A DNA stretch of 30,440 bases from a virus, in IMG/VR virus record IMGVR_UViG_3300032083_002353, positions 1 to 30,440 of that record. One strand, given 5' to 3'. Below are positions 1 to 25,000 of this stretch, piece after piece. Both the position numbers and the translations under genes were made by a program. The notes beneath the pieces are model-generated. The model had not been told where the DNA came from. It was given only the letters and a program-made list of their open reading frames with translations, and did not search any database. Each line of letters begins with the position of its first letter. Position 1 is the first letter of the stretch.

Positions 1-619
1 AAACAATAATTACCTTGGTGTTTTTACCAGACGAGATAGTAGGATAAACAGAGGCAAAGAATTGGTCAGCAATATGATTTGGGATGAAAGCAAACTCATC
101 AAGAAAAATAATATTATAAGAACCACCACGAACAGCAGATGCAGATGTAGATGCGGCTATAATTTTAGATCCATTCTCCAATTCTAATGATTGTTTATTC
201 CAAGAAACAATACCCTGTTGCATCCACTTTGGTAAATTTTCATATGCAAGTTGCAATCTTCCAAGAAGATCCTTTGCAGTAGCTGCTTTGTTTGCTAAGA
301 TAGCAATATTAACATTGTCATTAAAGACTGCATAATGAAGTAGATAAGACACACATGTTGTAGACTTACCAGTCTGACGTGGCATCTTACAGATGTTGAA
401 TCTATTCTTATGGAAATTCTTTACAAGTTTTTCTTGGAACTTGTACATCTTAAATGGTACAAGACCCTCATCTAGAGAAACAATTTTGATATAATTTCTA
501 GCAAAATATACAGGATCTTTTTTACACTTCAAGAATTCACGAATATCATCTTCAGAAAATTGAATCTTTGTATTCGCTTTTTTTAGATTGGGATTACCAA
601 GATAAATGCTTTCACTCAT
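1..619 (-). CDS. gp17: Terminase large subunit, N-terminal ATPase part (partial, runs off window)
   Basis: This is the DNA-packaging motor ATPase, which docks at the portal and pumps DNA into the prohead using ATP. I translated it by hand from the ATG at 619; 206 codons are open to the window edge, so the rest of the ATPase and the whole nuclease domain are missing. Residues 78-88 hold the Walker A loop, CKMPRQTGKST, matching the T4 gp17 style P-loop with an Arg before the Gln. Residues 171-179, IFLDEFAFI, are Walker B with catalytic Asp174-Glu175. The preceding region (PVYFARNYIKI, FKMYKFQEKLV) is the usual adenine-binding N-terminal part. The ATG lies 14 bases after the upstream stop codon; only a weak ribosome site is visible (AT-rich spacer), so translation may depend on coupling to the upstream gene. 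The identification is seen directly from the motifs and supported by the adjacent gp16. Confidence 0.96.
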   Translation of the reverse strand, partial: MSESIYLGNPNLKKANTKIQFSEDDIREFLKCKKDPVYFARNYIKIVSLDEGLVPFKMYKFQEKLVKNFHKNRFNICKMPRQTGKSTTCVSYLLHYAVFNDNVNIAILANKAATAKDLLGRLQLAYENLPKWMQQGIVSWNKQSLELENGSKIIAASTSASAVRGGSYNIIFLDEFAFIPNHIADQFFASVYPTISSGKNTKVIIV

Positions 620-632
620 AATAATTATTGTT

Positions 633-2918
633 TCAGCAATTCCAGGCTCTTAGTGATTTTGACAAACGATCATCGCCTGTGTTGTTAGAAGGTTTTTGTC
701 TCTTACGCATTCCTTTCATCCTTGCACAGAATGATGCTCTTCTCTTATTACCAACTTTCTTAGAAGGTGCTTTCAGATCAGAACCAGGATTCTCTCTTTC
801 ATAAGACTTACGTCCTTTCTCATTGAGACCACCCTCACTGTTCTGACCAGACTTCTTAGTCCATGATGCACCTTCTGGCATGAATTGTCCAAAAGTTTTA
901 ACACCTTCTACAGTTACAAGCGGTTCACTTTCAATACGATCTCTTTCAAAGAAATTTACCAATACAGCTTCAGGAAAAATTTTTCTGAGTTGAATTAATA
1001 CATCTTCTCTAGAAGGTCTCTTTGATGTTGGAAAGAAAAATTGAAGTGATTTATACTGACCTCTAAAGGTAAAGAACATTGTATAAGTTCTTCCCATTTT
1101 TTGGATTCTTTCATATTTTTCTTGAACATACTCTTCATTTGATGGAGTAACAGAAGCAATATTAAATGTATTTTTTGATCCAAGCGCAACAGGACTTGAA
1201 TTCATATCCCAGTTTTTTGGTCCATATGAACATTCTTCTCTGGTTTCATTCTTCTCACATTGAGGGCAATAGCGAACATTTCCCATACCTTCTACGTGTA
1301 ACTTAATATTATCACTAATATTTACATCTTCTTTTTTTGTTTTCTTAACACAGTTTGGATATCTCTTTCCAAACATGGTCTTCATACCTTTCTTCTCATA
1401 ACCTTTCCAACACTTTTCATCCAATATATCCCTTAAATCTGTAAAGGAGTTTCTCATTAGTGCTCTGCCACCTGAAGAAGATGTAGTTCCTCTTGACAAT
1501 GTGCTGCCTCCAGTTCTTGATCCAGTTCTGGATGCACTTGGTCTTGTCTCAGATCCACCACCACTTCTCAATCTTGAGCCGCCACCGCCGCCAGATCCAC
1601 CTCTGTTGCGGCCACCGCCACCACCACTACTTGGTTTGTTTGGTTTTCCTGGATCTCCATGTCCTACATCTTTTTTCTTAAGAACTGGTTTTTTCTTATC
1701 TTTCTTATCCTTATTTTTCTCTTTCTTCTTATCACCACCTGAGCTGTAACTCATGCTATAGTTTACACCTACTTTATTTTCTCTTTTTCCTTTCTCCGAA
1801 GATGCAGAATGACTAGTTCCAGGTTTTGCAAGTGCTTTACTTACTGAACTTTTGATGGAATCATCAGTTGCCTTAGCAGGAACAGCTTTGCTACTAAAAG
1901 TAACACCACCAGAATGAGATGTTTTCTCTTGCATTTCAAATTCTTCAGACTTATTTCCCCAGTTTGCAGCACCAGCCTTACGACACTTTACCAAAGCACC
2001 AGAAGCATAAGCAGAGGGCCATACAGAATAACGAGACTTGACCTTATGATAACAAGCGTCTTTTGTTCCACTACCTTTACTTTTTTTATCTTTTGCTTCT
2101 GAAACTGATAGTAGTTTTTCTTCCTTCATTTTCTTTTTGTCAGTAGGAACGTAAGTTGGTTTTGCTGCACTAGATTTTTGTTGTTGGCCAGGATCTGCTG
2201 CTTTTTTTCTTCTTTGAGCAGAAAGTCTTTCTGCTTTACTCATACTTGATCTTTTTTCTGAAGAAACACACTTAGGAGTTCCTTCTCCAGGTTTATCACT
2301 TGCACAGGTTCCACCTGTTACAACATTAACCCATCCACCTTTGCCACCTTTTGATTTAGATTTACCAAACCAATCACGTAGCCCTTCTTCACTTACAGCA
2401 CCACCATTTCCGTTGCTACCATTACCATTGGAACCATTTCCATTTCCACCATTACCATTCTTTTTATTACCTTCAGTTTCCTTTTCGTCCTGATGTTCAT
2501 TATCCCGCATCAAATATCCACTGGACATTACATGATAACCTTTAGGAATTTTCTTGCATTTTTTGGAGGTATTACAGTAGTAATAACCCCTTTTACAACT
2601 CTTAGATTCCTCAGAGAGATCGCTTTGTAAATTGTTCATTACTTGCTTCCGATTTCTTTCGTCCATTATTTTTACAAATCTATTAGAAGATTTGACCATG
2701 TTATCAATATTTTTCATTGACAATCTTGAGACTGGGTATACGTTGGAAAATCTCCATTTATTTAATCCAGATTCATCAGGTGTTTGAAAATCTTGATCAA
2801 CAGCATAATTCCATAGTTTAGAGTCAAAACCAGCTTGAGATAGTGATGCACCCCCTGAGGAATAACCACCATCACCTACAGACATATTCGGTATTTCTTC
2901 TTTGAAAAACCTATTCAT
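633..2918 (-). CDS. Mosaic Cys-rich, low-complexity protein between the terminase genes (DUF5872/DUF6321-like modules)
   Basis: This 761-aa protein has no assignable function. It is a string of short modules. Residues 1-100 are an unrecognised head. Residues 108-130 form a Cys module (Cys108, 115, 121; YYYCNTSKKCKKIPKGYHV). Residues 153-173 are an Asn-Gly repeat. Residues 176-250 contain GGWVNVVTGG, Cys205/Cys217 and KAERLSAQRRKKAADPGQQQ, resembling DUF5872-type modules. Residues 287-320 contain DACYHKVKSRYSVWPSAYAS and Cys312. Residues 396-480 are Lys-rich, then Gly/Arg/Ser-rich. Residues 503-523 hold CWKGYEKKGM...PNC. Residues 551-563 are a CxxC...C cluster. Residues 600-670 look like a compact alpha/beta fold. 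Residues 683-761 resemble DUF6321 (SFCARMKGM, ending AWNC). These modules occur in marine phage proteins, as I recall them; their role is unknown. The ATG overlaps the gp16 stop (ATGA), implying translational coupling. The high Lys/Arg and Gly content suggests nucleic-acid binding, but that is inference. Confidence 0.85.
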   Translation of the reverse strand: MNRFFKEEIPNMSVGDGGYSSGGASLSQAGFDSKLWNYAVDQDFQTPDESGLNKWRFSNVYPVSRLSMKNIDNMVKSSNRFVKIMDERNRKQVMNNLQSDLSEESKSCKRGYYYCNTSKKCKKIPKGYHVMSSGYLMRDNEHQDEKETEGNKKNGNGGNGNGSNGNGSNGNGGAVSEEGLRDWFGKSKSKGGKGGWVNVVTGGTCASDKPGEGTPKCVSSEKRSSMSKAERLSAQRRKKAADPGQQQKSSAAKPTYVPTDKKKMKEEKLLSVSEAKDKKSKGSGTKDACYHKVKSRYSVWPSAYASGALVKCRKAGAANWGNKSEEFEMQEKTSHSGGVTFSSKAVPAKATDDSIKSSVSKALAKPGTSHSASSEKGKRENKVGVNYSMSYSSGGDKKKEKNKDKKDKKKPVLKKKDVGHGDPGKPNKPSSGGGGGRNRGGSGGGGGSRLRSGGGSETRPSASRTGSRTGGSTLSRGTTSSSGGRALMRNSFTDLRDILDEKCWKGYEKKGMKTMFGKRYPNCVKKTKKEDVNISDNIKLHVEGMGNVRYCPQCEKNETREECSYGPKNWDMNSSPVALGSKNTFNIASVTPSNEEYVQEKYERIQKMGRTYTMFFTFRGQYKSLQFFFPTSKRPSREDVLIQLRKIFPEAVLVNFFERDRIESEPLVTVEGVKTFGQFMPEGASWTKKSGQNSEGGLNEKGRKSYERENPGSDLKAPSKKVGNKRRASFCARMKGMRKRQKPSNNTGDDRLSKSLRAWNC
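1479..1670 (-). repeat. Gly/Arg/Ser-rich low-complexity tract
   Basis: This stretch encodes residues about 417-480 of the 761-aa mosaic protein, including runs such as SSGGGGGRNRGGSGGGGGS. On the plus strand it reads as CCACCGCC-type triplets (around 1574-1632), the most GC-rich spot in an otherwise AT-rich window. Such tracts are expected to be disordered linkers and may be unstable in length by slippage. Confidence 0.85.
2400..2462 (-). repeat. Asn-Gly tandem repeat
   Basis: The segment encodes residues 153-173 of the mosaic protein, an (N-G-x) run: KNGNGGNGNGSNGNGSNGNG. At DNA level it is a 6-9 base repeat of GGTAAT/GGAAAT-like units. It is a likely flexible linker between the first Cys module and the DUF5872-like module. 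Confidence 0.85.
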
Positions 2919-3328
2919 TTCTGACTCTTAAGAAATTTTGCTAACTCTGCTGTAGATCCTACAAATAATGAATTATTTGTAATAGATTTTGGACCAGAGT
3001 CCTCATCTTTATTTAGTTCCTTCATTTTTTTCTGCAGATCTATAAGTTTATCAGTTGTATCTGCAACACTTTTTATAATCTGTCCAGCAACTTCATATGC
3101 TCTAGGAGAATCTGACTCCTGAGCTAATTCCATAATTCCATTTAAACTTTCTTGACCTTTTTCAATTAAAGAATAAAGATTTCCTCTCGTATATTCATAG
3201 TCTTTCTTAGACTGTTCAATTCTTTCATCAGAAACAATAGGAATAATTTCAGATTCCTTGGGAGTGACATCTATAATATCAGTTTCAGTATTCAGAGAAT
3301 CGCTAATTTTATCGAATGATTTTGACAT
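2915..3328 (-). CDS. gp16: Terminase small subunit
   Basis: This 137-aa protein is the small terminase, which forms the ring that regulates gp17 and helps recognise DNA to be packaged. The central helical region, DYEYTRGNLYSLIEKGQESL at residues 43-62 followed by PRAYEVAGQIIKSVADTTDK, matches the conserved core of T4 gp16. It is predicted to form the oligomerising coiled coil, continuing through LIDLQKKMKEL. The acidic N-terminal region (residues 1-40) and the Lys-rich C-terminus are typical of the family, and the length is slightly shorter than T4 gp16 (164 aa). It lies 8 bases after gp15, and its stop overlaps the start of the 761-aa mosaic gene by ATGA. In T4 genes 16 and 17 overlap; here a 2.3-kb gene separates them. 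Confidence 0.93.
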   Translation of the reverse strand: MSKSFDKISDSLNTETDIIDVTPKESEIIPIVSDERIEQSKKDYEYTRGNLYSLIEKGQESLNGIMELAQESDSPRAYEVAGQIIKSVADTTDKLIDLQKKMKELNKDEDSGPKSITNNSLFVGSTAELAKFLKSQK

Positions 3329-7093: not shown

Positions 7094-10000
7094 TTATGCT
7101 AATGCAATGGTTCTAAGATCATTCATTCTAGGAGCGAGACACTCATTTGTTCCACTAAACACAATCTTTATCTGATATGCAGTAAATGGTGGCAATTCAT
7201 CAATACTGAATTGGTACTCCCTCATTTCATCAACTGTTACAGAAATAACTTGCTGATCTGGTTTACCAGAATTTTTAGATGGATCTATGACTTGATCGCC
7301 AAAATTATCACCATCAGTATCAGTTAAGTTATCAAATCCAGGGAACAGAACAAATGATGGATTTGTGTTTCCACTATCAACTGGGAATGTTCTGAAGAGT
7401 GCTCTGATGTCTGCAGTGGGATCAACATAAGCTGCTGTGAACAACTTAAGTGAAGTTGCAGGGTTTTTCAGATCAATCCTATCAGAAACGTAGATTGCAG
7501 CATGAGGATCATCTTGTATGGAATTTACTCTAGAATCGGTTGTATAATCACTAATTGGATTATCAACTCTAGATCTATCAAAGTCAATAGAGCAGTTATT
7601 AAGATAGATAAATGGTGAATAATTACTATCTGTACTCTGCAAATCAACTTCAACTGTAAATGATTTGTTTCTTGGTAGACCTGTTACATTTGCTTCTTCA
7701 TTTACTTTTGAACAAACCATTTGAGGTTGGCCAAACAATAAAGTTGCATTTGGTTCAGTTGACAAGAACCCTTGATCAACGAAAGATGCTTCATTACCAC
7801 CAGCACTAGTTCCAGAAATTGTTCTCACGCGAGTTTCAATTTTGGTCTTCTTAGGAGTAACAATGTCAAGTCTGCAGTTTAATCTGTCATACTGAATGTT
7901 ACCAGAAGCAAATACTTCATCACCACCAGCAATAAATTCACTTGCAAAATTCAACATGTTTGGACCATCTCTCCTATTACCCCTATCAATTTCAATATAG
8001 TAGGTATCAATAGTTTTATTTGCTTGGAAAACTACTGCAGAAGGAATGTTATGGACTTTGTTAATTTGAGTCAGTGAAATGTCATTGAATTCATATGGAT
8101 ATACTTCGTCTCCAGCTGCATGTCTAACGGCCGTGGTTCCTTCTGCGCCTCTTGTGGCTATTCCAAGAGTGCCATTACCAATGCTGTTGTAATACATGAC
8201 TTCATTATCAACCAAGATATATCCAGCAGAAGTAGTTATACCTTGGAATGTTCCATAAGGTGAAGTGTCAGCAACTCCAATAGATGTTACAGTGGCGTTA
8301 ATATCCACATTTAATTCTGAAGGAATTCTTGTTGGATCTACGTTATAGATGTCAACAACATTACGAGTATCTTTCAGTGCATGATTTGGATGAAGAACTT
8401 CAATTACATTTCCTGAATGCAATTCATCAGAAACAATAGAAGTTCTAACTGCTGTTGTAACACCAGTATTCAAAGTTTGTGCATTTCCACTATCATCATA
8501 GTAAACTAGTGGATCATCAACAACAAGGTGTTCACCTCTGACATTTGTAAGATAAAGTGTATCAACACCATCAATCGCAGAAATTGATATCTGAGCACCA
8601 GTACCTTTAGTCACATCTGCTGTAGTAATGCCAAGAGACTCTCCAGCAATATAACCAGTTCCAGTATTTGCAATTGACGCTGAAGATAAAACACCATTAG
8701 CAATTGTTACTATACCTGTTGCTCCAGATCCATCACCAGATAATGAGAAGAAGTTTACATTACTGTAAGTACCATCAGAATATCCAATACCAGGCAAATT
8801 AGCTTTCAGGGATTGGATAGTTCCACCAACATTACCAATTACACCAGTAACAAGTGATCCAGTTCCGACCTTTCTACCAATCTGTAGAACATCCTTCATC
8901 CCTTGTGTCAATACAGTTGTAATACCAACATCAAGTTGTCTTGGTAGAGACTTAATTGGATCTTCTGGCATATCAGGAAGTTGATCACCATCTCTATCAA
9001 TATCTGGATTATGGAATGTAACAGTTCCGTTATCAACTAAGAAACGACACTTATTAACTCGGAACTTCATGTCTTCAAACTGACATGGTGTCCAAATAGA
9101 ACCGTTCTGTGACTTATACAGTGAACCAGAACCATACTGTCTAGTATATTGCTGTGATTCAGGCCCAGATAGTTCTGCAGTGTTTACAGTTTTCTCTCCA
9201 AGTTTTGCAATCCAAGCATTATACTTGATCGAAGTTGGTGCTAGAAGTACAATACAATATTCAGTTTCTGGTTCAACAGGAATTGGTGCTGAGAAAGTAA
9301 CTCTAGTAGCAACACTAGCATCATCAGAAATATTCACTTGTGATGGTTGAAGAACAACTTGAGCTTCTTGAGAAACAACTTGTAGTGTTGGTAGACCCAA
9401 TTCAATTGTTCTCAATTCAACAGTCAATGGTGCTTTGTTGTCTTTTGTTGCCATATAAATGTCAACAGAAGAAATGAATGCACCTTTCTTATCTGTTGTG
9501 AATGACTGTGCTAGAGGATCTCTCCTTCTTACTCTAATAATACGAGTTCTATTAATGACTATCCTACGCACAATAATTTGTGGAGGTGGAAGCTTTTGCA
9601 TCCTAAAGACATTAGTTTTAGTTACAGTCGTAACCGCATTCTTCGTGGTTGTTACCAGTTTTTTGATTGTTGTTGTTATTGTAGTTCTGATAATTGTCCC
9701 TGAAGAGGTGAATGGAGCTTCTGCATCAGAATGCGTGAGTGCTCCAGGTAACGGATCTGTATCCTTATTATCATTAGTTATTTTGAATATTTTGGTTCCT
9801 GTCTTAAATCTTCTATTCTTATTTTTTCGACCAGCAAATGCAATGTTTCCATACAAACTTCCAACACCATCACTTACCAATCTCTTTCGTTGTACTTGTG
9901 CAACTGCACCACTGGTTCTACCGATAATTACAAAATTTGACCAGAAGTTTCCAAAGAACTTACCTTGTTGTTGACGAGACATTCCAAGTGTATCTAAATT

Positions 10001-13000
10001 CAAAAATGTAGAAGAACTATTGTAAGTGGTTAACTTACTAATGTCTTGAGTTCTATCATATGGATTAAAAGTATATATCTGGTCTGGATTTTTAATCTTT
10101 CCAGTCTTGTGATTTGGTTGAGCAAGTCTAACAACAGCTCTTCTACGAGCCTTCTTAAACTTCTTACCCTTAGGATCATCTACAACGTCATCAAACTTAT
10201 CTTCAACTTTTAGATTACCTACACCATCAACAAATTTTAGAGATTTTTTATTCCAAATTTCGCAAATTTCGCCAACTTGGAAAGATCCTTGAACATTGTC
10301 AATTTCGACCAATTTGGGAAGAACTCTTACTTTTTTGGATCCATCATAGAAACCATAATATCTTGTAAAAGGTTTCAATGTTTCAGCAAAGAATGAGACG
10401 TTTCTGCGTCTCATATACTTAGCTTGACTAGTCTTTGACTTAATTTTTGTAGAAACGTTGGTAATTTTAGTATCTTTTGACTTTGTTACTTTTGTTTTCT
10501 TCTTGGTATTAGTCTTCATTGAAGACGGACCATTTTTTGGTTTCCCAACCTTGAATTTATTAACAACGTTTGTACTTTTTTTGTTTACAGTCTTGAACTT
10601 TTTCTTAACTACCTTTTTATTCTTAACCTTAGTTTCTGTCCAAGTATCTTGTGCTGGTTCTAATTTAATAGTACCAATATAATCAATAACACTGAATGGG
10701 TTTACATTTTCAACTCTAGTTGCAAATGCTTGCTTTAGATATTCAGTCTCTTCATATTTTAGACTTACAACATTTCCTGTTTTTTGGCAATTTGTATCTA
10801 ACAATGGATCATCAGATGATAGATCTAGAGTATTAACATCATCTTGTTTTTGATACTGCAACTGTGGAGTTAAAGATACTTGGAAAGCTTCACATGAAAG
10901 TTGTTCGATACCAGGATCCACAACCATTGTTGTTAATTCTTCATCGAATAAGTCATCATTTGTGAAATCATCAGCAAAGAACCCAGTTTTGAATCTATTC
11001 AACCCATCAGCATCTGTAATTTGTAAAGATCTGGTATCATTTTCAAGTATTGAAAGAGACACGGTATCTTCAAGATTTTCAATTCTATCTTCAAGAGAAC
11101 CGATATCTCTCATTGTGAAACGCTTATTATCAACGAGAGTTAGTTCAGTATCTTCAACGTCATAAACATATGGTGGAGACTCCAATGTTGCCAAAGTCAT
11201 AGAGTCTTCGACAACTGAAGGTACTTGTGGATCGTCAGATGGAGTACCCGTAACAACTTCAATTTCACCCTCTGGAGTTAGAATGATTCTATCCATTCTA
11301 CCCAAATAATACTCATAACTAAGGAAAGAACTTTCAGAGTCTTTTGGAATCAATGGTGAAGAAGAACCAGTACCTGAGAAATCTCTAGAATCATAATCAA
11401 ATGGTGATTTTCCAGCTTCAGTTCCGAAAGGAGCAACTCTTGGTCTAAAGTCTAATGTATCTGACGCTCTCGCAAAACTAAATTGATTGAAATTATTTGG
11501 TTCAAAAATATCTGGTATATCATTCTTGAATCTATCTGCACCATAAGATAATACAGTAAAAGCATCACCATCATCACTATCTGGGATAGTATAATGATTG
11601 AAAATAACTAACAATTGTTTTGTTGGAACTTTATTTTCAACTCTAACCAATCTTGAATAATCAGAGAAATCTGGTCTTTGACCATCATCAAGAACATATT
11701 GCTCAGTTAGATCTACATACCTACCATCAATGACTGACTGAATAGTTGCTTCAATTGTAGATTCTTGAAATGTGAGAGTTTCGCCCACAGAGAATCTCTC
11801 ATCATTCAGATATACAACTTCAACTTTAGTTGGTGATACTCTTGTAACTATTTGTGCTACAGCAGTATTATTTGGTCCAAGAAGAAATTCTCCAACAATT
11901 GAGTTGGTGTCCAATCCAAGTCCAGTTTCAAATGTCAATGCATCTAATGTTGGAGCTACTGATGTTTTTGATTCATATACAGCAAGAATTTGAGCAACAT
12001 CAGGAAAATTCAGTGAAATTTCTTCGTCTTCAACTCTAAGTCCATAGAAAGCGTTATGGGTCATTCCATTCACTGTTCCTGTAGTGATTCCAGAACTCCT
12101 TAACTTAGACTTGTCTACAGTTAGTTTTGTACTTCTTTTCCACTCTTTTAATTTTGATTGCAATCCTTTCTTTTTAGCTGTTACCAGAACAGTAACATTA
12201 CTTTCACTTTTGTTTAGACCTGTAAAAGAGACAATAGTTCCATCACGATTAATTGTAACCTGTTCAGATCTCAGTCTTTCGGTAGATCCATCTGAATATG
12301 TTATTACATATCTTTCACCATCAAAGGCATCAAAAAATGAACTTGTTACACCAACATTACTAATGTTGATGGACATTTCACCTAGGGTATTTGTTGATTG
12401 TGCAAGTATTTGCTCATAAATTGTAAGATTTGATTTAGAAATATCAACGGATGCAATATTTACCTGATCTAATGGTAAAAATAATGATCCACCATTATCA
12501 CCTTGATCAAATCTTGTCTCACCAATTCTAAATCCAGTTTCAATTGTACCAGATGGTAGAGTTCCAGTAACAACACCAGCGACCGTTGGTACGGCCACAA
12601 TTGTCATTGAATTTCCATCAGCAGCAACTGCACTTACACGGTTGAATACAACTTCATCATATTCTGGATTTTGATATCTAATAATTGAATTAGTTGCAAT
12701 TCCAGTAAACTTATTACCTGGAGAGGTTACAGTTCCACCACTTGTAATTTGAATAGTATCTCTTCTAGTAAATTTAGGAGCGACTCTACCTCTCTGAAGT
12801 GTATCTGCAACAAAATCAGCAGTTAAACCAAGAGTTGATGCATTCTGATATACAGATTTTACTGAATTAATATCATAAACTATCATATCTTTGATAGTTC
12901 TTGGAAATTCATTTGTACCATCAATACTGATAGTTTCACCTTCAGCAAAAGTTCCAGAAGTTTGATGAAGTTTTACTTTATCACCACTTGACCAAGCTTC

Positions 13001-14488
13001 AGCAGCATATCCACTAGCACCACTACTATTTCCTTTGAAATAAGTACCTTTAGAGTATTGATATACCTCATTCAGAGTCAATTCAGTGTAAGTCTGAATA
13101 TCATATAATCTTAGTTCCCAATTACTATTATTATTGGAATATGAATTTCTTGGAGCAAAAGAATATAATCTAGCTTCACCAACTTTTTCACCAGTACCAG
13201 CAGTAGTACTATTTCTTCTTTGATCATAAAGATCAATTACATGAGTGGAATCCTTATCAAGACCGATTACTGGTGTACCATGTACATTTTCTACTAATAG
13301 AACTGAACCAAGATCAAATGAAACTAAAGAATCATCAACTTTCTTAGTCGCTCTTGGTTTGGGAATATCAATAACTCTTGATCCAGTTATATCAATGTCA
13401 TATCCACTTACATATGCCTTACCAGGACCTACTGTAAGGCACATTAAATCGTCTGAAGGGATATTCCCATCTCTAGTGGTTTGAGTACGCTCATAGACGC
13501 CATCATTACCCTGTTCATCGTTTAGACACTCATCCATAGTGAGGTCCATAGGGACTACAACGTAATCACCAGATTCCTCATACGTTCTTTTTGCGAGATA
13601 ATCTCTAATTTTATTATATTGAGTTTTTGGTTCTGCTTGATCAGGTTCACCACCATCGAGTCTTAAAAGTTCTACAAATGATTTGTCATCTGTATCAGTT
13701 AATAATTTTTTGGCAAGTTGTAATTCAAACTTGAATCTATCTGCTCCAGGAGCTGAGAAATTATTAAATCCAGCGGCATTGTCAAATAGTTTTGTATTCT
13801 CATTTGAGTTTACAGTTGTTTCAATAATTTCTAGACCAACTCTATATGTTGGAGTGTTGGTATATTGATCTAGTAAAATAGTTTGTGCAGATACGTTTAC
13901 AAAGAATCCACGAATAAAATAAACACCATCAGCGATAGAAATTGCTGATCCAATAGAATCTGCATCTTGTGCAACAACCTGAGCAAAGGGAGCTCCCTGG
14001 GAAATAGTTGTATTTCCATAAGTTACATCCTCTTCTCCAAGAAGGAGTTCACTTTCAGAAAATGTTGAGAAAGCACCATCTTCACTAGAGTTTAAATATT
14101 TGACATATAATGTCAGTTGATTATCGACTGAATCTTCTTCAAATAGTACATTTACAACAGATGCAGTTACTCTAGAAGTTTGTCCTAAAATTTCCGTGCC
14201 AATAAAGTTTCTAGCATATGCTGAAACTGAAACACCAAGATATTCTGGATTAATCTTTATCGCATAATATTCACTATCGTATGTAAGTCCACCAGGAATT
14301 ACAACAGAACCATCCTTGAAAAAATGATCTCCAAATTGTTCAATTTGATTTTGGAGAATAGACTGTGCATTATTTAACTCTCGGGCCTGAACTGGAAACC
14401 CTGGCTTAAACAGAACCTTATAGAAATTATCGTTTTCGTTAAAATCGTCAAAATATGGGGTTGTGTTTAGATTTGTCTTTTGTGCCAT
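7094..14488 (-). CDS. Giant DUF4815 tail/baseplate-peripheral protein (2,464 aa)
   Basis: This is a very large virion protein, probably a baseplate-attached fibre or gp10-region counterpart. The N-terminus (TNLNTTPYFDDFNENDNFYK, LFKPGFPVQARELNNAQSIL, DGSVVIPGG) is the DUF4815 signature of marine T4-like phages. Later parts include a Lys-rich segment (residues about 1286-1358) and an RRRDPLAQSF motif near residue 1655, followed by a conserved galactose-binding-like region (PVEPETEYCIVLLAPTS). Acidic DIDRDGDQLPD near 1830 resembles a calcium loop. A GxGY cassette lies at about 1900-1980, a 'VDNEVMYYNSI...ATRGAEGTTAVRHAAGD' module at 2090-2132, and the end reads APRMNDLRTIALA. It follows gp8 by 4 bases. 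T4 genes 9, 11, 12 and wac have no recognisable counterparts here, so this protein may take over part of their role (inference). Confidence 0.9.
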   Translation of the reverse strand: MAQKTNLNTTPYFDDFNENDNFYKVLFKPGFPVQARELNNAQSILQNQIEQFGDHFFKDGSVVIPGGLTYDSEYYAIKINPEYLGVSVSAYARNFIGTEILGQTSRVTASVVNVLFEEDSVDNQLTLYVKYLNSSEDGAFSTFSESELLLGEEDVTYGNTTISQGAPFAQVVAQDADSIGSAISIADGVYFIRGFFVNVSAQTILLDQYTNTPTYRVGLEIIETTVNSNENTKLFDNAAGFNNFSAPGADRFKFELQLAKKLLTDTDDKSFVELLRLDGGEPDQAEPKTQYNKIRDYLAKRTYEESGDYVVVPMDLTMDECLNDEQGNDGVYERTQTTRDGNIPSDDLMCLTVGPGKAYVSGYDIDITGSRVIDIPKPRATKKVDDSLVSFDLGSVLLVENVHGTPVIGLDKDSTHVIDLYDQRRNSTTAGTGEKVGEARLYSFAPRNSYSNNNSNWELRLYDIQTYTELTLNEVYQYSKGTYFKGNSSGASGYAAEAWSSGDKVKLHQTSGTFAEGETISIDGTNEFPRTIKDMIVYDINSVKSVYQNASTLGLTADFVADTLQRGRVAPKFTRRDTIQITSGGTVTSPGNKFTGIATNSIIRYQNPEYDEVVFNRVSAVAADGNSMTIVAVPTVAGVVTGTLPSGTIETGFRIGETRFDQGDNGGSLFLPLDQVNIASVDISKSNLTIYEQILAQSTNTLGEMSINISNVGVTSSFFDAFDGERYVITYSDGSTERLRSEQVTINRDGTIVSFTGLNKSESNVTVLVTAKKKGLQSKLKEWKRSTKLTVDKSKLRSSGITTGTVNGMTHNAFYGLRVEDEEISLNFPDVAQILAVYESKTSVAPTLDALTFETGLGLDTNSIVGEFLLGPNNTAVAQIVTRVSPTKVEVVYLNDERFSVGETLTFQESTIEATIQSVIDGRYVDLTEQYVLDDGQRPDFSDYSRLVRVENKVPTKQLLVIFNHYTIPDSDDGDAFTVLSYGADRFKNDIPDIFEPNNFNQFSFARASDTLDFRPRVAPFGTEAGKSPFDYDSRDFSGTGSSSPLIPKDSESSFLSYEYYLGRMDRIILTPEGEIEVVTGTPSDDPQVPSVVEDSMTLATLESPPYVYDVEDTELTLVDNKRFTMRDIGSLEDRIENLEDTVSLSILENDTRSLQITDADGLNRFKTGFFADDFTNDDLFDEELTTMVVDPGIEQLSCEAFQVSLTPQLQYQKQDDVNTLDLSSDDPLLDTNCQKTGNVVSLKYEETEYLKQAFATRVENVNPFSVIDYIGTIKLEPAQDTWTETKVKNKKVVKKKFKTVNKKSTNVVNKFKVGKPKNGPSSMKTNTKKKTKVTKSKDTKITNVSTKIKSKTSQAKYMRRRNVSFFAETLKPFTRYYGFYDGSKKVRVLPKLVEIDNVQGSFQVGEICEIWNKKSLKFVDGVGNLKVEDKFDDVVDDPKGKKFKKARRRAVVRLAQPNHKTGKIKNPDQIYTFNPYDRTQDISKLTTYNSSSTFLNLDTLGMSRQQQGKFFGNFWSNFVIIGRTSGAVAQVQRKRLVSDGVGSLYGNIAFAGRKNKNRRFKTGTKIFKITNDNKDTDPLPGALTHSDAEAPFTSSGTIIRTTITTTIKKLVTTTKNAVTTVTKTNVFRMQKLPPPQIIVRRIVINRTRIIRVRRRDPLAQSFTTDKKGAFISSVDIYMATKDNKAPLTVELRTIELGLPTLQVVSQEAQVVLQPSQVNISDDASVATRVTFSAPIPVEPETEYCIVLLAPTSIKYNAWIAKLGEKTVNTAELSGPESQQYTRQYGSGSLYKSQNGSIWTPCQFEDMKFRVNKCRFLVDNGTVTFHNPDIDRDGDQLPDMPEDPIKSLPRQLDVGITTVLTQGMKDVLQIGRKVGTGSLVTGVIGNVGGTIQSLKANLPGIGYSDGTYSNVNFFSLSGDGSGATGIVTIANGVLSSASIANTGTGYIAGESLGITTADVTKGTGAQISISAIDGVDTLYLTNVRGEHLVVDDPLVYYDDSGNAQTLNTGVTTAVRTSIVSDELHSGNVIEVLHPNHALKDTRNVVDIYNVDPTRIPSELNVDINATVTSIGVADTSPYGTFQGITTSAGYILVDNEVMYYNSIGNGTLGIATRGAEGTTAVRHAAGDEVYPYEFNDISLTQINKVHNIPSAVVFQANKTIDTYYIEIDRGNRRDGPNMLNFASEFIAGGDEVFASGNIQYDRLNCRLDIVTPKKTKIETRVRTISGTSAGGNEASFVDQGFLSTEPNATLLFGQPQMVCSKVNEEANVTGLPRNKSFTVEVDLQSTDSNYSPFIYLNNCSIDFDRSRVDNPISDYTTDSRVNSIQDDPHAAIYVSDRIDLKNPATSLKLFTAAYVDPTADIRALFRTFPVDSGNTNPSFVLFPGFDNLTDTDGDNFGDQVIDPSKNSGKPDQQVISVTVDEMREYQFSIDELPPFTAYQIKIVFSGTNECLAPRMNDLRTIALA
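10414..10632 (-). repeat. Lys/Thr/Asn-rich low-complexity segment of the DUF4815 protein
   Basis: About 71 residues (positions about 1286-1358) contain 26 lysines in short K-K-x and K-x-T patterns, for example KVVKKKFKTVNKK and NTKKKTKVTKSKD. It ends just before MRRRNVSFF, where ordinary sequence resumes. No stop or frameshift interrupts it. A strongly basic, probably disordered or collagen-like linker in the middle of a virion protein is unusual. Confidence 0.8.
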
Positions 14489-16096: not shown

Positions 16097-19000
16097 TTAT
16101 AGGAAGATAATTTTACTTAGACTACCAGTGTTTCTAAGTCCCAATCCACGTCTTGATATTGAAGAGAAAGTTGTTAACCCAACATCAACAGTATTTCCGC
16201 TTACGGAAATTGAAATTGGAGTATCTCCTCTAGTAAATCCAGAGAGTTTACCCCAAGAGAATTCACCAATATTTGCACCAAAGGTTTGAGCAATTGCTAT
16301 AACGTTTGTGTCAGATTTAATATTACAAGTAATAATACCTGTATTACCTTCAATGTTAAATGCGTTTACTGTATAGATGTTATCTAACAGATTTGTTCCG
16401 ATTCCAACTATATCAGAATCATCCACATTAACTGATGTAACTCCAGATCCAGTAACAGTACCCTTAACAAAAATTGGATAACCTTCTAGTAAAGTTGGCA
16501 GTAAAGATACAGGGCCAGAATCATTCAAATCAACTTGAAGTTTAAGTGCAAGAGGATGACCACCAGTTCCAGTTGTTGTACCGATTCCAGTAATAATGCC
16601 TGCGTAACCAAGAATGATATCTGAATTGCTAATAGATTCAGTTTCAGAAGCAGGGAATTCTACAATTGCTTTTGGTGGATTAGTAGGATCATAACCTAAT
16701 CCCTCATTAGTGAGTGTTACTGAAGTTAATATGCCACCTGATGCACTGCCAGTTGCAATTGCAGTAGTTCCAACTCCAATAATTCCATATTTTGAATTGT
16801 CAACTTTTGAAGGATTTGCAATAGAAACTTCGACAGGTCCATCAGCATATCCAGAACCAGCACTTGCAATAGTTAATGATGTAATTGTTCCACCAACTGA
16901 TACTGATGCTGTAACTGCGGCCGCAACGGGATCGTTATATTTAACAATAAGACCATCTGCAACAACTAGACCAGTGTTTCCTTCATCTTGCTCATATCTG
17001 AAGAGATCTGAACTCTCAAGGAATATTTCAGATCCACTTAAACCAAGGTCTCCAATGATTTTACTCGTTGGCATGACTTGTGCCTCAAGTGTTTCTCTGA
17101 TTTTTGGTTGAATTTGTTCAGAGATGATAATATCTTTCTTCTGTCTGGTAAAGGAGATTGGTCTGAAGACGTTTGGCTCAATACCTTGATCTCTATAGAC
17201 ATTTGTTTCAATATCTGTAGAGTCCTTAATAGAGAAGATTGTTCTTTCATTCTGAGTGATAGTGTCAGTTCCATCAAACTTCTTAAGTCCAACTTGATCT
17301 CCAGGTTTTACAGTTTCAAATACTGTAACGATGAAACTATCAGTTCCTCTAGTTCCTCTATAGAAATAGATTGAAATTACATCAAATGGCAATGGTGGTG
17401 AGGTAAAGTTGAAGTTGAAACTTGTACCACCTTCAAAGAAGTAATCTTTTTTGGGCACCTGAACAACACCATTGACGAAGATCAGGAGAACAGAATCCAA
17501 GTCAATCTCAGCTGATCTTTGATTTGTAGGATCTGTTTGGAAACTTAGGGGGATTCCATTCAAGTTAAGTGGGAATCTAGTTCTAACTCCATCTTGAAGA
17601 CTTTGGATTGAGTCAATATAATCAATTTGTCCAAAGTTCCATGAAGAGAACGTGTCACTAATAATTTCAATAACTTCCAAATTGAATTGTGAATATTCAG
17701 TTATTATTCCTGCTGCAGTAACAAGTCCAACTGGAGTAAAGATATCACCTCGTTTGAAGGAGAATCCAGGACTGGATAATTGATAATTAACAATTCCAAA
17801 GAGATCTGTTCCAACCCCAACAGTAGCACCAGATCCAACTACACAATCAACGTTTAAACCTAATCCAGTTTCTGTTGTATTACCAATGCCAGGTCTACTA
17901 ACACCTTGAATTGAAAGATCAGAGTATGATGGTGTTTCAATTTGAATTGTTGGATTAGTATATCCAGATCCCCCACCTGTAATTGCAAATTCTAAAATAC
18001 CACCTGTTGAATTTGATGAAGTTCCAACGTTAACAGTAATCTTGGTTGCCGTTGGTGTGGTAAGAACTGTAAGAGCTACTCCAGATGCTGGATCTGTAGA
18101 ACGTGGATATGGGTGTACGGTTTGATGGCTGTCTTGAGCACATGTGAATACTATTGAACCATCTGCAATTTCAATTGAATTTGAACTTGCGGTTAATCCA
18201 TGTGATCCAGTAAATGTTATTGTAAGGATTCCAGTTACAGGATCATAATCTGAATCACTTACTGTTAGTGTTCCACCAATACTTCTAGTAACGCCATCAG
18301 CAGAAGCAGAGACGAATCTATGCTCGTTATTTGGAATTATTGCTGTGACTGTCGCAGCAGCGCCAGAATGACCTTCCTCTTCAACTACAACATCTACGGT
18401 ATTGAAGTAACCAGAACCGAATGTCAAGTAATTGTATTTTGCAGCCTCAGGATCTACACCACCTTTTCTTCTATTTGGAACAAATGTGTGTGCAAATCCA
18501 ACTTTAAATACATCAACTATAAATTTGGTAGGTGATACTACAGTATCGATTTCGTATGGTCCAACTGATTTAACACCAAACACAATTCCATGATCATCAT
18601 AGTTGTGATCAATTGTTGAAACTCCTACATTAGTGATAATTTTATTAGCAGCAGGAAGACCAAAGATTTTAAATTCAAATCCTTGAGTTCCATCTGGGAA
18701 AATAGTTGTGGTAACACCACTGTGAGCCGAGCCACACGTTAGTGCAATTCCAGATAGATTAATTACATCTCCAATGGCAAGACCACTGTAATTTTTCTTA
18801 GTAGTAATGGTTGAGAAACCTGTAGTCTTATCATATTCAAAGTTCTCAATTGCATAAGGTGTTCCTCTATTATCGGGGAACCTAGTTGTGGTAAATCCAG
18901 TATCAACTGTGCCACCACCAACATAAGTATTTGCATATCCAAGAGGATTAACATTTGTCACAAATGTTGTTGGTCCAACAACAGACTGAACAAGATAACT

Positions 19001-22000
19001 ATCGGCGTATGTTACACGATTGAGGAATCCAGTATGATCAGTATAATTGTGAGCAATAGTTGATGGACCAACATTAACTGTCATTTGTGTGGATGAAACG
19101 GCCGTGACTTCAAATTCGTCAAAGAAATTAAGATCTCCAGCCTTAGCAATGCCTGGGAAGATAGTTGTTGTGATACCAGATCCACCAGGACAAGTGAACG
19201 CTAATCCAGATAGTCTTACGAAAGAACCAACACCAACATTATGAGTCCCTTTCGTGGTAATGGTAGCGACACCTATGGATTCAGTATAATTAAATCCTGT
19301 TATACCCCACTGAATTCCTAAATCACTTGAGAATTTATTAGTGGTAACACCAATTTCTACGCCAGCTGAACCTACGTTGATTCCAATATGTGGAATGGTG
19401 GATAGTCCTACTTGAGTCTCAAACTCTGTATTGCTGAGTCTAGTTACAATATTAAAGACTCTACCATTTGTTCCATCTGGGAAGAATGTTGTAGTGACAC
19501 CAGCATGAGGAGCGGCACAAGCAAACTCAAAGTTCTCAAGTTTTACTTGCATATCAGTGTTTAATTGATGAACTGTTGAAGTGGTAACTGTCAAGATACC
19601 AACAACATTGTTATACACAAATGTGCTAACTCCACATCTCTTATTGTACACGCCAGTAGGACAGATAAACTCTAGATCATCAAACTGAACTCTCATGTCC
19701 TTATTGAGGCCATGATTAGTAGATGTAGTAACGGTCATGATTCCAGACACGTTATCATAATCAACAGTAGAAACACCAACTAAAGTATCAAATCCCTTAG
19801 GACAATCGAATTGAATATTTCGCATATCAACGAAATCATTACTAGTAAATCCATGAGGAGATGCAGTAGTTACTGTTCCAATACCACTTGTTCCATCATA
19901 GATAAAATCAGTGATGGTTGTATAAGTTCCTACAGTATCAATACCAATAATATTAGTAATACTACCACCAGCACCAACCTCAGCAATGACTTTAGCTCCA
20001 ACTAGAGGTGCTACTCCAATTCCACCAGAAGATCCAATAGCAATAATTGCACCACCAACTGGTAATTGATTTTTAATAGCATCAAGTTCGCTAATGTACT
20101 GTTCACCTGTTATCAGTTTAGTTCCACTGAATAATACTTCTACATCATCTTCGTTAGTTACGATTGAATATACATTTAGAGGGTTGTTATCAGTTGACTG
20201 ACCCTGGTGAACACCATTAATAAAGAGTAGTCCACTTCCACTAGAAGTATCTAGACCAACAGGATAATTTCCACCATTAACACTTAGTGCAAATGTTCTA
20301 CCAATACCAGTGAATTCAGTTGAAATATCATCATAAAGTTCATTCGTAGTGTAATCATTTCTCAGATAAACACGTCCATTAAATTCAGATCTAGTAAGTA
20401 GTAGTCCTCTATCATCGGTAATGAAATCACCACCAGCACCTTTAGGTGTGTCAACAAAGTGAATGTCACTTTCTACAATATTATATGCCCCTCTGTGGAC
20501 AATTGTTGTTTGATTGCTTTCGTGAGCAACTTCTGTTGTTCCAACAAATCCTCTAGCAACATTTACAAGTTGGAAAGTACCAATACCAGTAATTGGGCCA
20601 AGTCCTGTTGTACCAAGTCCAACATTCAAAATGTTCATCATCTCATCACCAATTTTTAAAATGTAATCGGGAACAAGAGTTGAGATACCAGATAATGCGA
20701 TAACTGTTCTACCAACAGCAATTGGTTCAATAGTCTCATGTGTCACTAGTGTTCTAGAAATAGGATCTTGAACAACACCGTCAAGAACAATCAATGATTT
20801 TTCAAGTTTTTTGGTAGTATCAATTAGGTGATTATTACCTGCACCGATACCTGTTGGTGTAATTCCAAGACCTTTCAGAGCAAAGTCTCTCTTAGTAGCA
20901 AGTTTAATGTTATTATTATCAATTCTAATTACGAATAGATCCTCTGGTAAAATATTTGTGGTGAATCCAGAGAAGTAAGACTGTCTGCTCGTAGTTGCTG
21001 TAGCCACAGCGGACATTGTAATACCAATACCAAGTCTCTCAGAATAGTATGTACTGCCAACACCAACTGGAACATTATTTGCAACAGTAAGTTGTTGTAC
21101 ACCAATAGCAGTAACAGTTCCAAATCCAGTTTCTGTAACAAGTTCACGAATCGTGTCACCAATAGCAATGACTGTGGTATTTGCAATTCCTGTAATAACT
21201 TTAGTTCCATCAGAATCTCCAAGGAAGAATCTGAATGTGTTGCCAATACTTACAATCGTAGCAGCTGCTGCAACACCAGGTCCAAAGAACTCATCACCAA
21301 CAGAGATGCCTAAATTGGTGCTTGCTGAAGAAACAATATTTGATCCACTTCTAATATCACCAATTACGCCACCACCACCAGCAGTTGTAGATCCAATAGT
21401 AATTGATTCTGAATTAATTCCAATAATAGTTGATCCAGGTTTATACTTGATATCCTGGCCATCGTTCATAAAATGATTTTCTAAGAAAATGTTTCCTGTT
21501 GTCTGATTGAATACTGAAGTATTTGAAGGATTAAATCTTCTTGCAAAAATTGGATAACCTTCATACTCTAAAGTAAAATTAGTTCTGTCTTCTGGAGTGT
21601 ATTTTGCCTGTACAACAACTTCAATAGCAGTTCCAAATCCAAATTCAGGAATTTGATTGATGTTTGTATCTAGATCACTATAAACAATCTCACTAAATTC
21701 TTCAATTCTAATTTCATCACCAACATATTCTGTATCAGGTAAGAAAATTAACTCACAGAAAGTTCCATTATATTGAGCACTAAATGTTCCAAGACCAATT
21801 GCTGTGTTTATACCCAATTGTGGATATTCGAGAACAAAAGCATCCTTTTGAGAAGACTCCTGAGCAAATAAAACTTGGCTTAATGACTCGGTATTTCCAC
21901 TAGAAACTCTAATAACTGATTTTGCAAAGCGATCAGTGAGTGATGTGATTCCAACAACTGTAATGCCATAACCAGCATTAGCAGTTTCTTGAATTACATT

Positions 22001-25000
22001 AGATTCTATTCTTGCTGTTCTTTCTGTGCCATTTTCCTGTGTGGGGAGTTTAAAGTGTTCTGATCTCAATCCAACATTGGTGGTTGTGAATCCAATAACA
22101 TTTGCTTTAATTGTGGCAGTATTTGTGCCATCATTATGGAATTCTAATTTTAGAACATCATTTACTATATTTGCACCAAATGTACCGATAGGTGAGAAAC
22201 TTAGCAATCTTTCACTACTATCAAATCCATATTGACCAAGATATGCGTTGACCCCATCATGAAGAACAGTTATTTCTGCATATTCTCTTTCAGAAGTTGT
22301 ATTATCTGTAACTTCAACATATGCAAAGATTGAATTGAATTCGCTACTAGCAAGTCCAACAATTTGATCTGTAGATCCAGCTCCAATTACAGTTGTCAAT
22401 CCTATTATATTTGTGTCACCAATAATGTTGGTTCCAATACCACTGCTTCTTGAATCAAATAATTGACGGAAAGCTTTTATATCATAAGTTTTTGCCTGAT
22501 TTGATGGAGTAAATCTTAGAGCAATTGTTCCATTTAACTGAATAAATTCTGTAGTAAACTCTCCTAGACTTTCTTTTTCACTTTCAAGATCTACTTGTTG
22601 TTGGGCATTAGATTTAATATTCGCTTTTTCTAATAGGAATGTATTATCATTACCATCAGAAATAATAATTAAATCATAAATTTGAAATGATGTTTGATCA
22701 ACAACGTCAGTTACTACAATTGTAAATCTAGAATATCCTGTTCCACTGGGGTAATTTATAATATCTTTAAAATTACCAACTAAGTTTTCTCTATCAATGA
22801 ATGATCCACTGATATCATCAATACTCAGAACTCTATTAGTTAAACATTCAATAAAGTTGGTGAGTTTTTTAGTTCCAAATTTAATTGAATTTGTAGAAAG
22901 TTGACTAAAATTAGTTACACTCTGTTCAACATCAGTATCAACTGCAAAATCAAAGAAATTATTAGTTGTTACGTCTGATTCAGAGAATAAGTCAATAACT
23001 ATAGATTGTGTACCATCATCAATAAAGTTAGTAGAAGCAACAGCTACTGAAGTTATTTCAGTATCAGCAAAATTCTTTGTACCTGAAATATGTGCCAAAC
23101 GATTGACTGGACCAATCAAATCCTCAAATTTAACAGGACTCTTAATACTGTATGCTAATTTTTGATAATAATTATTATCTGATATAACTTGAGTATCATC
23201 ATTTAATACTCCTTTATTTGTCAACCAACCAAAGTTAATTGTAGATCCATATCCAACATTGTAAAATCCATCAAAAGATTTAGATTCTACAACAGTTCCT
23301 CTAACTCCAGAAACTGAACCAAGAAGTACATTACCAATATTTACTTCTAGATCACCTCTAGTTTTGAGAGTTGAATTATCAGAAGAATCTACTGTTAGAG
23401 TTGTTTTAGTTAGATTACCTGCTTGATTTACCAAGAGTATAGGTTCATTATCAATAAAATTAGTTTCGAGAATTTCTACGGAGAATGTTGGATAAGATTC
23501 TTTCTTGACAATAGATCCAAAGTTAACATTAGTAACAGCAACTCCAGGAGATCCTGTTCCTATTCCACTTAGATCAATTGTAACTTGAGCAGGGTTGATA
23601 CCACCATTAAATGCAGTTACCTCAAAGAATCTAAATCCATAATTTTTAGAATTAAATCCATCGCCTTCTCCAGTATATTCCTGAATACCATCAACAAATA
23701 CTTCATCGCCTGCTTGTAATGGACTTGTTGAGAATCCTAATACGGGAGTTACAACAGTCAAAGTCATAATTCCAGTTTGAACACTATCAGCCTTAGTAAT
23801 ACTTAAACCATTATCATTAATTAAACTGTAAACACTGTGACCAACACCCTGAAGACCACTTCCAGGATTTACAACAACTACTTTATCAATACTTCCAGCG
23901 TCTAATTCTGCAATGAGAACTACCTCATCAACTAAAGTATTATTTGATGAATTTACAAGAACTAGATTTGGAGGAGTAATAAAGTTTCTTCCACCATAGA
24001 CTGGTGAGACATTACCAGTAGTAAAGTAATTTGTAAGTTCATGTATTGCTGGAATGTCAGCTACTGGTTTTAGAGTTTTATCAGAAGGAAAGTCAAATCC
24101 AGGTTTCTCAACTTCAGTTCTATCTAATAAACCAATATTGGTTGATTTTGGAGCAATTTCAGCATTAACTCCCAATCCTGAGGTGATCGTTGATATTCCA
24201 GGAAGTTTATCATAATTAGTTCCTTTAGATAAGATATTAAGTTTGGAAATTCCACCGATAGCAGTAGTTGATTTTGTAGAATATTCTAACTTATCAACAT
24301 CAGAAGAAGTATAGGAATCTTTTTCAGGTTTTTCTGGAAGATTGACTAAGAATGTTGTAACTACAGTTCCTAATCCAACGACAGTTGTGTTTTTAGAATA
24401 CTCACTATCAATATATAGAATTCTTGAGAAATTATTTGCTGAAATATCAGATTCTACAAGAGTGTTATTTGAAGTTTTTTCTAAGTTATAATATAGTTGC
24501 TCTGGCAAATATTCGTTAAACTGAATGGTAACACTGGCAGTTCCCATTCCAACAGTTCCAATTCCAGTTAACTCAAATGTTTCAGAACTTCCAGTTCCTA
24601 CAAGTTCATTTCTATAATCAGAATCATAGAAAATTTTAAAATTATAACCAGATAAGGAACTATCTGATACATCAAATTTAATATTATTATTTCTGGTTAC
24701 TTTTATTTGGGGATTTACTTTAGATATTGTATGTGAAGTTCCACCAACTTTGGTAAAGGTAACTAATCTAATGTTTTGTCCCTGAAGATCAATTTTAGTT
24801 TCTGCAAATGAGAATAGATCTGGATCATCAGAAAATACAAAGTATTTTCCAGTATCAATACCAACTGTTTCGTTCGCATCATAAAATACTAAGTCACCAG
24901 TAACTAATCCATGACTTGGAATAATAAATTTAGAGCTTGAAAGACCGACTGAAGATGAACTAAATCCAATTGGATCAATAACAGTATTTTGAGTAAACTC

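Follow-up and report, generated by a model that had tools for sequence, protein, structure and literature searches.

What kind of protein does a cyanophage encode between its two terminase genes, and where does that protein act? In the 30,440-base virus record analysed here (the window, meaning the whole stretch), ORF scanning and translation gave an intact ORF of 761 aa with an ATG start at 633..2918 on the minus strand. Its start overlaps the stop of gp16, the small terminase gene (2915..3328, minus strand; phrog_445, E 2.5e-53; PF11053), by 4 bp (ATGA). On its other side lies gp17, the large terminase gene, of which the N-terminal 206 aa are present (2..619, minus strand; PF03237; open at the contig end). 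The host phage is a T4-like cyanophage near Tamkungvirus S-T4. A first-pass annotation had described a Cys-rich gene between gp16 and gp17, coupled to the former by an ATGA overlap, and the sequence bears out both statements.

The same annotation had raised the possibility that an assembly error had joined two genes. The protein recurs at its full 761 aa on two other metagenomic contigs (L092 and L093), identical at 760 of 761 residues, with gp16 upstream and gp17 downstream; the single difference, N151K, lies in a linker. Hence an assembly-made join is ruled out. Both contigs have the same gene DNA, 2 bases away from that of the window, and come from IMG/VR samples with close numbers; they may therefore represent one lineage and count as one witness.

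Against Pfam the only family found in the window protein was DUF6321 (PF19846), at residues 692-759 with E 1.5e-20 and 74.1 bits versus a gathering cut-off of 28.5. The suggested DUF6321-like tail is thus real, whereas DUF5872, proposed for the same profile search, gave no match at E up to 1. The latter family is named in literature on an algal virus, in the part of it that was accessible. No mention of DUF6321 or PF19846 was found in the open-access literature searched, nor, in the accessible part of the P-SCSP1u structure paper, for the terms tried. Among the PHROGs profiles 11 families matched, led by phrog_727 (E 6.7e-115) and phrog_3477 (E 1.5e-86), none of them with a function annotation. 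NCBIfam held no family for the protein, and PDB sequence searches with the whole protein, its DUF6321 part and a podovirus DUF6321 gene returned nothing notable (best E 0.75, for the whole protein).

Both by profile match and by its place between gp16 and gp17 the window gene belongs to the T4-GC119/phrog_727 family, with which it shares the module types, mostly the same module order, the C-terminal DUF6321 and mostly the location; it differs from other members in its fused N module and a basic linker of 162 aa. The Pfam family as such is broader. In two T7-like cyanophages DUF6321 is not the C-terminus of a longer protein but a gene of its own, of 71 or 84 aa (L168:4950-5204 and L169:4980-5195). 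The DUF6321-only gene of P-SCSP1g directly follows the major capsid gene, and that of S-TIP37 stands after the capsid-assembly (scaffold) gene and before the capsid gene.

The protein was described at first pass as mosaic, Cys-modular and basic, and this was confirmed (computed pI 9.84, net charge about +64). All the Cys residues named there are present, and Cys731 and the C-terminal Cys761 come in addition. Reading from the N-terminus, with all positions on the minus strand, the N module (residues 1-100; 2619..2918) also occurs as a free-standing ORF, for example SSM2_108 (T4-GC 1207), and is fused here. M1 (101-140; 2499..2618) contains C108, C115 and C121 and is predicted to form hairpins (block pLDDT 73-85). 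It is followed by a linker rich in Gly, Ser and Asn (141-175; 2394..2498). M2 (176-272; 2103..2393) resembles phrog_3477 and phrog_12753 and carries C205 and C217, and M3 (284-325; 1944..2069; CYHKVKSRYSVWPSAYASGALVKCRK) carries C289 and C312. The long basic linker of 162 aa (326-487; 1458..1943) separates these from M4 (488-532; 1323..1457; C503 and C523) and from M5a (533-590; 1149..1322; C551, C554 and C563), which is less conserved. M5b (591-681; 876..1148) is a domain with a confident beta-beta-alpha-beta prediction (block pLDDT 88-95) and is homologous to a small neighbouring protein. M6 (682-761; 636..875) is the DUF6321 part with C731 and C761. M5 was scored as a whole in the module scans and was split into M5a and M5b only later; some apparent module reorderings may therefore be partial M5 hits.

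The Cys residues are nearly invariant among the distinct relatives, which were chosen by similarity and include the window protein: 48/48 at the three positions of M1, 81/81 and 80/80 in M2, 49/50 and 50/52 in M3, 75/75 and 74/74 in M4 and 82/82 at both positions of M6. Conservation in M5a was lower (23/31, 28/31 and 28/32). In 99 of 103 ORFs the stop codon comes directly after M6; in three it comes one codon later and in one at 228 nt. A DUF6321 tail that closes the protein with a terminal Cys is a trait seen here and absent from the Pfam definition; the window protein has it. Queried alone, the tail gave 519 places in 519 phage records, one per record. A scan of genome contigs gave 33 loci, nearly all of them on contigs from MAGs or single cells, where phage DNA may be present, and one in an isolate (Nonlabens).

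Place and module combination had both been thought unusual, and neither view is supported. The region between gp16 and gp17 is a published hyperplastic region of cyanophages, which the accessible part of PMC2984593 credits to Millard et al. 2009 and which also appears in that of PMC3037559, and in which the gene is known as T4-GC 119. It lies downstream of gp16 in S-SM2 (SSM2_109) and Syn19 (Syn19_101), and Bellamy gp123 and SSCSM1_29, in the same place, are relatives by homology and position. S-T4, S-CREM2 and ACG-2014f have counterparts, all downstream of gp16. Syn19 and S-SM2 annotate T4-GC 119 as hypothetical, and Syn19 annotates T4-GC 402 as structural. In all nine accessions common to the tail and gp16 match lists, the DUF6321 tail stands 0.8-2.1 kb downstream of gp16. 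Members also occur elsewhere: P-SSM4 has its own at a distance from gp16, with a few genes between it and a cytidyltransferase gene, and the best module places in P-SSM3 and S-SSM7 are about 49 and 73 kb from gp16, with two further places in S-SSM7. The window gene is one more representative of a cyanophage family that is common but uncharacterised, in a region already known to vary.

How regularly the modules occupy this site depends on how the loci are drawn. Among the 83 loci holding both gp16 and TerL, 47 had modules between the two, 35 had a gap of <=600 bp without modules and one had 2 kb of other sequence. The contigs fetched with P0001 are biased toward modules, and we therefore quote a gp16-centred subset (the best 80 of 579 matches, 52 of which held both gp16 and enough TerL). 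The neighbourhood survey that had been suggested finds modules at the gp16-gp17 site in 16 of these 52 loci and none there in the other 36. This bears on the proposed packaging-associated role. A core packaging factor would hardly be missing from the site in 36 of 52 loci, although those phages could carry the gene at another site; with no support from homology or structure either, we set this idea aside.

The commonest architecture found was M1-M2-M3-M4-M5-M6, with 32 ORFs and five more that add the N module (the window and duplicate records included). Module order and number vary among relatives. A DUF192 domain between M2 and M3 was confirmed with Pfam in L026 and L036, and a DUF192-like insert was seen by eye in the alignment of L022, L023, L032, L038, L041, L054 and L074.

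The modular gene is a mosaic. The contig L087 matches the window DNA at 100% in gp15 and the 5' portion of gp14 and at 97% in gp16; the N module is absent there, and identity falls to 76% in the part of M1 that aligns, to 85% in M2 and to 88% across 70% of M6. In L095 the relation is reversed: gp15 is 78% identical but M5b and M6 are 95-96% identical. Where the window has the 162-aa linker, L087, L088, L090, L094, L095 and L097 have 12 bp, yet L104 keeps it at 95% identity although its gp16 is only 82% identical. In six loci the N module stands as an ORF of its own, and in the window and in L090-L094 it is fused, a distribution that might suggest a fusion made by chance or in assembly and without a function of its own. 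We regard this as very improbable, since in the near relatives L090, L091 and L094 the N module is likewise in frame, at 98%, the near-identical gene recurs in the two contigs described above, and the Cys residues are near-invariant.

Is the protein part of the virion, as had been proposed? The evidence comes from relatives. Mass spectrometry detected S-CREM2 ORF137, a DUF6321 protein whose gene lies between gp16 and gp17, by 4 unique peptides covering 4.1% of it (PMC10665884). S-SCSM1_29 is labelled a virion protein in the GenBank record MK867354. The accessible part of the S-SCSM1 paper gives 45 virion proteins by mass spectrometry (PMC9602691), and in the record (L180-L184) we counted 48 virion labels. 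Up to three labels, possibly including that of ORF29, may thus lack a basis in mass spectrometry, and we take the label of S-SCSM1_29 as strong but not certain evidence. The relative S-SZBM1_192 was not among the 30 virion proteins detected in that phage (PMC9146016). Virion association of relatives hence finds support in two of three published proteomes, S-CREM2 and S-SCSM1 but not S-SZBM1; the two supporting ones are from CsCl-purified phages, and proteomics of this kind is blind to head versus tail. For S-CREM1 a 14-protein proteome is reported in the part of the source that was accessible. S-SZBM1_195, which is abundant in the virion and adjoins gp16, had been expected to be a DUF6321 protein; its sequence is not DUF6321. 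This protein of 87 aa (L174:378-641) has the third-highest emPAI in the virion table, where it is given no function.

The low peptide count in S-CREM2 and the undetected relative in S-SZBM1 leave room for a different explanation, namely a non-structural late protein that binds DNA or RNA, with a function in the nucleoid, in packaging or in host take-over, and that is a mere contaminant of virions. The basic character, the mostly low-confidence structure prediction and the position between the terminase genes would all suit such a protein. However, relatives were reported for two CsCl-purified phages, and we consider a contaminant rather unlikely.

A possible route into the head is suggested by N-terminal sequences. 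T4 IPIII needs nothing beyond its first 10 residues, of which positions 4 and 7 serve targeting and positions 8 and 10 processing (PMC9026906, accessible part), and the T-even internal proteins are diverse, with only the capsid-targeting sequence conserved (PMC3012670, likewise in part). T4 ipII and ipIII start with MKTYQEFIAEA and ipI with MKTFKEFTST. The free-standing N-module ORFs start similarly (MKTFKQFVSE in L012, MKTLKQFLKE in SSM2_108), as do S-SZBM1_192 (MKTFKQYITEA), which contains M6 plus, by eye, an M1-like Cys stretch, and its neighbour S-SZBM1_191 (MKSFKSFLSES). A targeting pattern was built on the T4 positions after review of the T4 literature and before the test on S-CREM2; the module N-termini and the S-SZBM1 proteins had already been seen by then. 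It matches five of six free-standing N-module ORFs as well as S-SZBM1_192; L084 (M1-M4) and L157 (M1) match too, from an offset start. Altogether 8 of 91 distinct module-ORF N-termini match, versus 0.04 expected from shuffles; S-SZBM1_192 had been added to this set by hand, and without it the count is 7 of 90. The other 83 of 91 fail, and many of them start directly with a module.

Within the same loci, 12 targeting-like starts were found in 162.7 kb of island versus none in 660.8 kb of flank. As contigs are related (L001 and L103 are one phage), we also give the number of distinct island peptides, which is 7. Those whose family was checked belong to free-standing N-module ORFs and to the small protein homologous to M5b (E 7e-6, probability 84%), which has a capsid-targeting-like start.

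The pattern was then compared with the virion proteomes. In S-CREM2 the strict form matches 5 of 219 proteins, four of which were detected (SAM hydrolase, ORF13, an APH/ChoK-like kinase and cytidylyltransferase); with a looser form 5 of 10 were detected (p 0.06). ORF137 itself has no canonical capsid-targeting start. The strict matches in S-SCSM1 are NMNAT, with a virion label, and SSCSM1_30, with none, and those among the annotated starts of S-SZBM1 are only _191 and _192, neither of which is among the 30 detected proteins. Taking the three proteomes together, 5 of the 9 proteins that match were detected in or labelled as part of the virion versus 122 of 710 others (Fisher p 0.011; 0.012 if the 48 S-SCSM1 labels are used). 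For S-CREM2 and S-SCSM1 together p was 0.004, which weakened to 0.011 once S-SZBM1 was added. The nine do not include a 56-aa frame without annotation within SSCSM1_231, nor two matches in S-SZBM1, of which one is at an internal start of _14 and the other in a frame within _147 that is likewise unannotated; the detected S-SZBM1 cytidylyltransferase (MRFRQFIIEA) needs a shift of one residue to fit and was excluded from the matches. In S-CREM2 (L176, L178) the virion table has four proteins of regulation or DNA metabolism, SAM hydrolase, kinase, cytidylyltransferase and Cas9, and each has a T4-like targeting peptide at or near the N-terminus, that of Cas9 being FASFMAEA at residue 19. In the open-access literature searched, no description of capsid targeting in cyanophages was found.

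The window protein itself starts with MNRFFKEEIPN and fails the pattern; by eye this start resembles that of an N module minus two or three residues. Cleavage by gp21 follows the consensus (L/I)xE|(A/S/G). No site of the type [LI]xE[ASG] occurs in the window protein, with 0.74 expected. As its start fails and such a site is missing, we do not class it with the T4-type internal proteins. It resembles IPI, IPII and IPIII of T4 in being basic and lineage-specific and in that some of its relatives and neighbours have matching start peptides. In contrast to them it is four to eight times longer and Cys-modular, its start is degenerate, it has no gp21-type site, and its location in the head is putative. 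A second comparison is with S-CREM2 ORF154 and S-SCSM1_91, the cytidylyltransferase/NMNAT proteins, which are non-structural virion cargo, as the window protein may be, and in P-SSM4 the two families lie close together; these, however, are enzymes with a canonical capsid-targeting-like start.

A location at the tail must be weighed against the head. The island could be a hot spot of adhesion modules, the Cys-paired modules being stabilised by disulfides on a fibre-attached protein that faces seawater. Tail-fibre-like genes do occur in the same island of S-SM2, S-SCSM1 and Bellamy, divergence module by module suits host-range genes, and detection of one relative in virions would fit a tail protein. 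But Pfam finds no fibre or lectin domain in the window protein, which is strongly basic, the targeting-like starts on its island neighbours point to the head, and the DUF6321-only gene of the two T7-like cyanophages stands right after the major capsid gene or between it and the scaffold gene. We judge a tail- or fibre-associated protein to be unlikely.

The most likely role of this T4-GC119/DUF6321 protein, which we put forward tentatively, is that of a cargo protein inside the head. The protein, a basic and largely disordered chain of small modules with paired Cys, would be made late and drawn into the prohead core, would stay in the full head, touching the DNA, and would be delivered with the DNA into the host. 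The N module of the window protein, despite its degenerate start, would still target. This placement is drawn from relatives and neighbours and not from membership in a targeted class, because the protein's own start fails, many module ORFs start with a module, and S-SZBM1_191 and _192 were undetected.

A wider interpretation is possible, though we hold it doubtful. The gp16-gp17 island could in part be a locus of capsid cargo, with the T4 targeting code conserved in cyanophages and marking non-structural virion proteins such as SAM hydrolase, kinase, cytidylyltransferase/NMNAT and perhaps Cas9. The modular Cys-rich proteins would then be recombining cargo fusions delivered to the host, where M5b, a small fold with a weak likeness to T7 Gp2 and RNAP epsilon, might act on host RNA polymerase. 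If cargo it is, a simple sequence rule would tell which proteins of abundant ocean viruses enter the head and arrive in the host along with the DNA, and this would help to explain recurring enzymes in cyanophage virions, for example cytidylyltransferase. The main worth of the family and its neighbours is that they expose a capsid-targeting pattern that can be tested.

Outside the M1 hairpins, M1-M3 were predicted with low confidence, and Foldseek against the PDB gave no match better than E 1.3. The VIA-align list for M5b, a small domain, was headed by T7 Gp2 and RNAP epsilon in a tie at low Z of about 5, which may merely reflect a common arrangement: the match to 4lk0_M (Z 5.2, rmsd 2.5, 49 aligned) is tied with an archaeal ribosomal chain (Z 4.9), and we take it as no more than a lead. 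A BFVD search returned mostly phage DUF6321 proteins, the S-SCSM1 virion protein first; its name repeats the GenBank label and is thus not separate evidence. One BFVD protein named DUF5872 aligned 49 columns with the M4-M6 model (rank 27, E 5e-3). Elsewhere in the window, a 2464-aa phrog_358 protein is encoded at 7094-14488, and a single ORF of 4765 aa (16097-30394, minus strand) takes up almost half of the window.
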